From the NCBI GenBank assembly GCA_949292875.1, contig CASFBJ010000011.1:1-33414 (forward strand): a DNA stretch of 33,414 bases, in the 5' to 3' direction. Position numbers and translations under genes: made by a program. Within the stretch, counting starts at the first letter, position 1; each line of letters opens with the position of its first letter. Below, in pieces: positions 18,328-19,856 of the stretch. This stretch comes from an uncultured Christensenella sp. (GTDB lineage Bacteria > Bacillota > Clostridia > Christensenellales > UBA1242). The notes under the pieces were generated by a model, which was not told where the DNA came from, made no database searches, and worked only from the letters and a program-made list of their open reading frames with translations.

Positions 18328-18503
18328 ATTTCCTCCTATTTTAACATGTTGTTTTCTTTTTAATTTTAATTTTAATTCAAATTTTAAAATTATATATCAT
18401 ATCAATATATTATACATATAACACAATTTTTTTATTTTGACAATCACATAACAAAGATTAAACTAAAAAAGAAAAAGTTTAGTATTATAGTTTGATAATA
18501 AAA

Positions 18504-18536
18504 AAGACTAAATATTTTATATTAACATTTAGTCTT
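18504..18536 (-). terminator. Terminator of the XRE gene, overlapping its stop codon
   Basis: On the minus strand a 10-bp stem (18527-18536 with 18504-18513) has a 13-nt loop and is followed by CTTTTTTATT. The stop codon of the XRE gene (18535-18537) lies within the first arm, so terminating ribosomes would touch the hairpin. Confidence 0.8.
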
Positions 18537-18780
18537 AATATGTACCCTCTAAATCTTTGTCTTTAAATAAATTATCATTAAAGAAATCATAGAGCGAAAT
18601 ATTTAATGCTTGACAAATATCAAGTATTGTTCTTGTTCCTGTGTTTTTACTTTTTCCATAAAAAATACTTTTTAATGAACCCGCAGGCATTCCAGCTAAT
18701 GTTGCCAACTTATTAGGTGTTATTCCCCGTTCATCACATAGATTATATATTCTTTTTGTTATTGCTTCTTCTAATTTCAT
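18535..18780 (-). CDS. Small XRE-family (Cro/CI-type) transcriptional regulator
   Basis: 81 aa, a single helix-turn-helix domain over residues ~5-70. The recognition region is TPNKLATLAGMPAGSLKSIF, followed by the typical T-I-L-D-I-C-Q-A-L-N-I-S-L-Y-D-F-F ending of helix 5. This length and ending are common for stand-alone HTH_3 proteins of Firmicutes. The ribosome binding site is weak (GGGAAA, about 11 nt upstream). It is divergent from the SLOG-like gene, and the palindrome between them is the likely operator. Autoregulation and control of the neighbour are inferred. Confidence 0.88.
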   Translation of the reverse strand: MKLEEAITKRIYNLCDERGITPNKLATLAGMPAGSLKSIFYGKSKNTGTRTILDICQALNISLYDFFNDNLFKDKDLEGTY

Positions 18781-18798
18781 AATTATAGTTTTCCCAAA

Positions 18799-18828
18799 GT
18801 TATATCTTTTATAATTTTAGCAAAACAA
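18799..18828 (-). promoter_or_regulatory. Possible promoter of the XRE gene
   Basis: A TTGTTT -35 (18823-18828), an 18-nt spacer and a TATAAC -10 (18799-18804) on the minus strand. The -35 lies 10 nt from the palindrome at 18839-18858. Confidence 0.45.
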
Positions 18829-18838
18829 TTTTTAAAAA

Positions 18839-18858
18839 ATAGAAGATATATCTTCTAT
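18839..18858. promoter_or_regulatory. Perfect 20-bp palindrome, probable XRE operator
   Basis: The sequence ATAGAAGATATATCTTCTAT is its own reverse complement over all 20 bases. It occupies the -35 region of the SLOG-like gene's promoter and lies just upstream of the XRE promoter. This is the usual geometry for a dimeric Cro/CI-type repressor controlling a divergent pair. Confidence 0.75.
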
Positions 18859-18862
18859 TGTG

Positions 18863-18871
18863 TGTTATAAT
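18863..18871 (+). promoter_or_regulatory. Extended -10 promoter of the SLOG-like gene
   Basis: TGT followed directly by TATAAT (18866-18871) forms an extended -10 element. The -35 region (18843-18848, AAGATA) is poor and lies inside the palindrome. A bound repressor would block polymerase, or an activator could compensate. Confidence 0.65.
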
Positions 18872-18921
18872 AAATTATATAATAAAAAATTTTTTACATT
18901 TACAAACACTCTGGAGGAATA

Positions 18922-19488
18922 ATGATAAGCAAAAAAACTTGTATTATTGGGCATAGAAATGCTAAGTTTAATGATGAAAAATTAAAAAAATTAAAAGAAT
19001 TTTTTGAGAATTTAATTGTTAATGATAATGTGACAGTTTTTTTATTTGGTAGTAGAAGTAATTTTGATTATATTTGTCATAAAATTATTACAGAATTGAA
19101 AACAAAATATTTTTTTATTCAAAGAAAATGTTATACTTGTAGTAGTGAAACTTGTACATTAGAGAATGAAAAAAAATATTGGGAAGCAGTTTATAGCCAT
19201 TTACATAAAAAAGAAGTTCATTTACTTTGTGTAGATGAAGAAGTAGAATTTAAAAATAAATGGATTGCAGGTAGAGCAAGTTATGTAATAAGAAATCAAG
19301 CGATGATTAATGATAGTGATATTTGTGTTTTTTATTATAATGAAAATTATGAACCAAAAATGCGTAAATATTCTAAAAGAAGTATTGCTTACTATCAACC
19401 AAAATCTGGAACTGAACTTGCATACAAATATGCTAAACAAAAAAAGAAAGAAATTATTAATGTTGTAGATATTTTATGTAATAAATAA
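18922..19488 (+). CDS. SLOG-superfamily (YpsA/DUF1273-like) protein
   Basis: 188 aa, with GGAGG 6 nt before the ATG. Pattern consistent with the Rossmann-like SLOG fold: TCIIGHR at the N-terminus (C-x-I-G-H-R), FLFGSRSNFD near residue 40 (glycine-containing nucleotide-site loop), VIRNQAMINDSDICVFYYNE near 122-141, and SGTELAYKYAKQKKKEIINV near the end. SLOG proteins bind nucleotide-derived ligands or process nucleotide-type signals; the reaction here is unknown. An unusual insert at ~68-77 carries a cysteine cluster (KCYTCSSETC) that could bind metal. It is cytoplasmic and single-gene, divergent from the XRE regulator. Family call is fairly sure, function not. Confidence 0.75.
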   Translation: MISKKTCIIGHRNAKFNDEKLKKLKEFFENLIVNDNVTVFLFGSRSNFDYICHKIITELKTKYFFIQRKCYTCSSETCTLENEKKYWEAVYSHLHKKEVHLLCVDEEVEFKNKWIAGRASYVIRNQAMINDSDICVFYYNENYEPKMRKYSKRSIAYYQPKSGTELAYKYAKQKKKEIINVVDILCNK

Positions 19489-19856
19489 CCATAAAAATAG
19501 CCGATAGTGAAACTATGACTATTTATTAGTTTTTATTTGCATCGCATATAGTAAAAATGTTTTTTATTCATATTATAAGTTAATTATATAGTTTTGTTAA
19601 AAATAACACAACATTACAATATACATTGCAAAAAATAATCAGAAAAAGTTTAAGATACAAGTTTTTTTTGAAAGCAAAAGAAACTTATCATTTTGTAAAA
19701 ATACTTATGTTTTTATTTTCCTATTTTAAAAAAGAAAAAGTTTTCACTTTTTCTTTTTTATGTATTATAAAACAAAAAACAACAAAACAAATTGTAACTT
19801 AAAAATTAAATTACATTTTGATTTTACCATATAATTAAAAAATGTCAATACCCATT
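19489..19856. other. 368-nt gap without a gene
   Basis: No credible reading frame on either strand. It holds a weak hairpin at 19495-19524 (AAATAG ... CTATTT with an inner ATAG/CTAT pair, then a T-rich run) that may end the SLOG-like gene, and a strong hairpin at 19728-19759. The rest is AT-rich with no recognised motif. Confidence 0.6.
19728..19759. terminator. Strong hairpin, probable bidirectional terminator
   Basis: A perfect 14-bp stem (19728-19741 with 19746-19759) has a TTTC loop. The outer six pairs are A-T and give T-runs on both strands. It lies about 100 nt beyond the stop of the minus-strand zinc-ribbon gene and 240 nt after the SLOG-like gene. Confidence 0.75.

Follow-up and report, generated by a model that had tools for sequence, protein, structure and literature searches.

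What is controlled by a small XRE-type regulator whose gene faces a single SLOG-like gene across a perfect palindrome? This question was raised by a 33,414-nucleotide stretch of DNA from an uncultured Christensenella sp. (contig CASFBJ010000011.1, assembly GCA_949292875.1), hereafter the window, for which the original prediction, made from the sequence alone, proposed a dedicated repressor with one target, forming a small inducible switch. The comparisons described below, all of which rest on metagenome-assembled genomes (MAGs), upheld this interpretation in part and revealed features that it had missed: a second operator, the exchange of the repressor together with its operator region, repressor arrays, orphan repressors, and the mobility of the whole module.

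The Divergent Gene Pair and Its Operators

The repressor gene (18535..18780, minus strand) encodes an XRE/Cro-CI-type protein of 81 aa with a single helix-turn-helix (HTH) domain, which scored above the cut-offs of HTH_26 (PF13443, 35.4 bits against 22) and HTH_3 (PF01381, 24.2 bits against 23). It is divergent from the SLOG gene (18922..19488, plus strand), which codes for 188 aa with a YpsA-like Rossmannoid fold and is preceded by the ribosome-binding site GGAGG (18913..18917, plus strand); the intergenic distance is 141 bp. A hairpin with a 10-bp stem, found 3′ of the XRE gene (18504..18536, minus strand), forms the left edge of the module, and another hairpin, 3′ of SLOG (19496..19523, plus strand), its right edge, both being likely terminators. 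The whole module, comprising hairpin, XRE, operators, SLOG and hairpin, was placed at 18498..19508, since this stretch aligns as a unit with the module of a related locus (L045).

The predicted 20-bp palindrome, ATAGAAGATATATCTTCTAT (18839-18858), was confirmed as exact and is contained in a perfect 22-bp palindrome, AATAGAAGATATATCTTCTATT (18838..18859), named O2, whose core is conserved in relatives. Dinucleotide shuffles give an expectation of 0.02 perfect palindromes with arms of 11 bp per window. A second, imperfect site, O1 (AGTTATATCTTTTAT, 18798..18812), is located 46 bp from O2 and immediately precedes the XRE start codon. The SLOG promoter had been described as depending on an extended -10, with its -35 covered by the palindrome. 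The extended -10, TGTTATAAT (18863..18871, plus strand), is indeed present just downstream of the palindrome, and a TG(T/C)TATAAT-like element occupies the equivalent position in most window-type relatives, i.e., those whose XRE is 75-93% identical to that of the window in the operator comparison. The palindrome also occupies the expected -35 position, yet no consensus -35 was found for the SLOG promoter.

It had also been suggested that the palindrome might recur elsewhere in the genome. In the 1.04-Mb genome, a single exact O2 site was found, the two sites with three mismatches were at background level, and the four near-palindrome sites examined fell within open frames or AT-rich DNA. A regulon of further operator sites was rejected, because the genome held no sites above background. 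In this way, the idea of a dedicated repressor with a single target and a real operator gained support, both from this result and from the conservation of pairing and operator presented below. The window XRE is most likely an autoregulated repressor with SLOG as its putative target, and the sequence makes it very probable that XRE would repress SLOG.

The SLOG Protein

The SLOG-like identity of the target was borne out by its AF2 model (pLDDT 92.8), which displays the SLOG Rossmannoid fold. The closest solved structure was that of Bacillus subtilis YpsA (SLOG superfamily, PF06908/DUF1273), with the same fold (2nx2, Z 15.3, 148 residues, rmsd 3.0), and further matches included DprA (Z 11.2), a molybdenum-cofactor carrier, ShosA, LOG (9.7) and ThsA (8.7). 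Unlike YpsA proper, with which it shares 14% identity in the structural alignment, the window protein does not reach the gathering score of the Pfam YpsA profile (24.2 bits, E 3.6e-5, against 27.7), and it was filed as a divergent YpsA-like subfamily. Sequence searches returned no relative of solved structure. Residues invariant among 20 SLOG homologues included G10-H11-R12, F40, F42-G43-S44, S46, F48, R124-N125 and S162-G163-T164. Residues 43-49 read GSxSxF(D/N), with E, D, N or Q at position 47 and D or N at position 49; GxD/E, the motif assigned in the literature to substrate recognition in the YpsA clade (PMC6459960), is not readily apparent there.

The uncommon C-x2-C-x4-C insert that had been pointed out in this protein does exist (C70, C73 and C78), but it is only partly conserved and is no feature of the family: all three cysteines were found in 16 of 81 homologues and the C73-C78 pair in 50, and the segment is absent from some distant members. 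A zinc-site reading of the insert was rejected because the cysteines are not conserved. The window genome contains five SLOG profile matches in total. Each of two further paralogues (L034, G000:C15:10983-11525; L041, G000:C4:53477-53956) is paired with a separate divergent XRE that belongs to another type.

Conservation of the Pair and of the Operator

The pairing expected in other genomes was found at 102 SLOG loci (86 non-redundant), where a divergent XRE gene lay within ~320 bp upstream of SLOG. Loci in which no XRE was detected include L022, L068, L069, L075, L076, L079 and L095, and in L037 and L117 the XRE is on the SLOG strand rather than divergent. Both O1 and O2 occur with nearly all SLOG-facing XREs at least 75% identical to that of the window (L045/L157, L046/L158, L006/L159, L048, L160, L162, L163, L164 and L165); O1 lies ~20 bp and O2 ~66 bp upstream of the XRE start, positions kept in nearly all window-type loci, and the spacing is 46 bp (48 bp in L165). 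Thus, the palindrome, whose loss in relatives keeping both genes would have spoken against its role, is retained at XRE identities of 75% or more, and a replaced XRE comes with a different operator. The latter situation is illustrated by L005, in which SLOG is 77% identical, the XRE has been replaced and a different operator is in place. In L160, L163 and L165, O1 and O2 were kept although the SLOG that they face belongs to a very distant subfamily. Another window-type XRE, in L166, has one operator copy and faces a tiny HTH gene rather than SLOG. The persistence of the operator with window-type XREs, even opposite a distant SLOG or this HTH gene, indicates that it belongs to the repressor.

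Exchange of Repressor and Operator

The XREs group into many clusters that differ in operator motif, such as AGATATATCTTCTATT for cl1, the cluster of the window, TATGTAGATATATCTACATA for cl3, TTACGGAGTTTCGTAA for cl4, TTTAGGGAAAACCC for cl5, and GTGTGTAAACAC for cl6. Over the 86 non-redundant pairs, SLOG identity and XRE identity were barely correlated (r = 0.09), and the XRE cluster was the same in 27% of pairs whose SLOGs are at least 90% identical. At least 15 of 16 operator bases were common to 44% of pairs with the same XRE cluster and SLOGs below 60% identity, and to 3% of pairs with different XRE clusters and SLOGs of at least 60% identity (1% in shuffles); common 16-mers track XRE, not SLOG. 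When XRE types were placed on a SLOG tree, a quick one with modest support, 38 changes were counted for 14 types, against a minimum of 13 and 48 after shuffling. Together with the arrays described next, these patterns indicate that XRE and operator region have, in all likelihood, been swapped jointly at the 5′ end of SLOG, as a cassette that sets specificity.

Of 85 pairs, 19 have two or more XREs ahead of SLOG, in arrays holding two to four XREs of different types. The distal genes were full-length XREs of another type in 14 of these 19, and for most of these distal genes an XRE in the proximal position at another locus was 73-99% identical. Since the gaps are mostly short, the genes of an array look like one operon, and since the arrays come from several independent assemblies, chimeras are an unlikely explanation. 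Two pairs of loci with flanks 97-98% identical showed how arrays probably grow. In the first, the place of 138 bp in L048, covering the intergenic region and 29 nt of SLOG, is taken in L047 by 608 bp with two further XREs and another control region; the distal XRE of L047 is of the window type (99% identical). In the second, 136 bp of L086 correspond to 665 bp in L082, with two further XREs, a new control region and a distal cl14 XRE. Both L047 and L082 are read as probable gains, because a loss would need a matching operator to be restored to the distal XRE. Permuted arrays were found at one locus in L014, L093 and L094.

The intergenic operator agrees with the proximal XRE at a median of 15 of 16 bases, and with the distal XREs at 13, which corresponds to background. 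An exception is L019, in which the operator on the SLOG side continues to fit the distal XRE, which means that cis action would persist for some XREs in the distal position. This locus may represent an intermediate of cassette exchange.

Retained and Orphan Repressors

Window-type XREs were also found as orphans, with neither SLOG nor operators, in L156 (93% identical) and L161 (90%). Between these two orphans, dN/dS was 0.13, a signal that may partly predate orphaning; the comparison of the distal cl9 XREs of L093 and L094 (dS 0.57, dN 0.01) is stronger in this respect. Purifying selection acts on retained as well as orphan XREs, as observed for several of them. Within one mismatch, no window-type operator was found in G177, G042 and G237, incomplete MAGs that carry an orphan or distal window-type XRE, and a longer, looser operator pattern gave only background there; given their incompleteness, a matching operator could sit in missing sequence or be more degenerate. 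Because distal and orphan XREs are mostly devoid of a cis operator yet kept by selection, they most likely act in trans.

Mobility and Distribution of the Module

The modules of the window and of L045 are 85% identical over 1,013 bp, with no alignment beyond, and the latter sits between unrelated genes. A clean empty site was recognized in L192, which has the same flanks as the L045 module (90%) and only 8 bp where the module has 1,062 bp. At the greA-thrS locus, the module was present in two of the 17 genomes of one genus. Judged from these sequence comparisons, XRE-SLOG behaves as a mobile unit of ~1 kb. SLOG matches were found in 109 of the 197 genomes of the family, with up to eight per genome, and, at a stricter threshold, in two of 299 genomes sampled across the phylum, one of which was the window's own. 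In most loci the flanks are unrelated housekeeping genes; neither a transposase nor a recurrent neighbour was found beside the module in the SLOG loci, and no partner genes besides XRE and SLOG recur there.

By tblastn, no plasmid or phage homologues of SLOG were recovered, and neither the XRE nor the operator pair occurred in viral contigs, so that carriage by a phage or prophage was not encountered. In the distantly related L124 and L125 (IMG/VR contigs), XRE-SLOG modules directly adjoin large serine recombinases, a position that suggests carriage on integrating elements in some lineages. At the greA-thrS site of a related genome, a different, hairpin-rich insert of ~150 bp (L191:640-900) has a copy of the greA terminator hairpin on either side, which gives the impression that terminators serve as targets for insertion.

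A Model for the Module and Its Alternatives

In the proposed mechanism, an XRE dimer would occupy two sites, O2 overlying the SLOG promoter and O1 overlying the start region of the XRE gene, silencing SLOG and limiting its own synthesis, as the anatomy and conservation of the locus suggest. Among relatives, comparison shows that the XRE is swapped with its operator region as a specificity cassette, the displaced XRE often remaining distal to the new one in one apparent operon. Retained and orphan XREs may repress in trans the incoming modules that bear a matching operator, as a resident prophage repressor does, a role whose odds, judged from sequence, we consider about even. Such immunity would make sense if unrepressed SLOG were costly or growth-inhibiting, which is plausible by analogy with YpsA: in B. 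subtilis and S. aureus, cells that overproduce it are reported to be blocked in division (PMC6459960, PMC7376506). Repression, autoregulation, trans action and the cost of unrepressed SLOG are steps that we infer; pairing, operator conservation, cassette exchange, arrays, the empty site and selection on distal and orphan genes were observed. Taken as a whole, an autorepressed mobile SLOG module, with a specificity region that turns over and old repressors retained to confer immunity against modules that come in, is the reading that we moderately favour. A bolder version is put forward tentatively and with less confidence: effector-immunity at the DNA level, in which a mobile SLOG effector would be tagged by its operator, and ordered repressor arrays, the newest next to the effector, would record the module types that a lineage has met and trans-immunise against them. 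Old repressor genes lined up behind the new one resemble a memory of immunities, one that works through gene repression. Points against the mobile-module model are the operator of L019 that fits its distal XRE, the absence of XRE and operator pair from the viral contigs searched, and the fact that a transcriptional repressor alone cannot cause post-segregational killing.

The main alternative is that SLOG is an anti-phage effector that binds or processes a nucleotide (e.g., an ADP-ribose derivative), and that its repression is lifted through inactivation or titration of XRE by a phage; XRE types would then follow changing phage signals, and old XREs would be leftovers or extra sensors. A connection of the SLOG/YpsA clade with cADPR sensing and with NAD-related immunity has been reported (PMC9503650), and the mobile, patchy distribution of the module, as well as the recombinases adjoining two relatives on viral or mobile contigs, would suit such a function. 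We consider it unlikely, since recurrent defence partners were not found beside the module and strong purifying selection on distal and orphan XREs that have no cis operators is unexpected for leftovers. Unlike Thoeris, in which SIR2-SLOG ThsA works with TIR ThsB, the window SLOG stands alone, with no PADLOC match and no recurrent neighbour.

An ordinary autoregulated housekeeping switch, in which a metabolite-sensing XRE controls SLOG and regulator swaps are neutral replacements, would account for the core repressor-operator anatomy and for the one target in the genome, but it fits poorly with the patchy presence of SLOG across the family, with empty sites, and with repeated exchange, ordered arrays and selected orphans, and is thus held to be quite improbable. 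Least probable of all is a toxin-antitoxin system in which XRE would also bind and neutralise the SLOG protein. XRE-type proteins are common antitoxins, and the effector-less orphan XREs resemble orphan antitoxins; against this, the two genes are divergent and do not form the co-directional operon of type II systems, the XRE is a bare HTH domain of ~80 aa, and one SLOG type pairs with XREs only ~30% identical, so that no conserved protein-protein interface is expected.

Relation to Known Systems and Significance

For the mobile module with retained repressors, the closest parallels appear to be phage superinfection immunity and the immunity arrays of type VI secretion systems (T6SS) that arise from sequential displacement. 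As in Cluster A mycobacteriophages (PMC6550527), a repressor with matching operators exists in many specificities and the immunity region is exchanged in mosaic fashion, trans protection being proposed for the window system as well. Unlike phage immunity, the XRE-SLOG system would guard a single chromosomal two-gene module of 1 kb rather than a prophage, and its old repressors accumulate in an array. In the T6SS arrays described for Vibrio cholerae (PMC5361080), the displacement of one pair after another at a single locus leaves the older genes for immunity ordered behind the new pair, as seen here; their immunity proteins are described as binding toxin proteins, whereas the specificity of XRE-SLOG would lie in operator DNA, the effector gene body is kept, and the retained genes encode transcription repressors. 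Orphan or anti-addiction antitoxins (PMC7354431) are likewise solitary protective genes without an effector, unlike which the XRE-SLOG genes are divergent and appear limited to transcriptional control. No description of XRE-SLOG pairing or of repressor arrays was found in a literature search that reached few subscription journals.

If the proposed reading is true, effector-immunity displacement arrays, known for secreted toxins, would extend to pure transcriptional control, and a reason would be provided for the orphan XRE genes of bacterial genomes. Many natural repressor-operator pairs of distinct specificity would also become available, and a testable role would be assigned to the YpsA-like SLOG proteins, which have been little studied.
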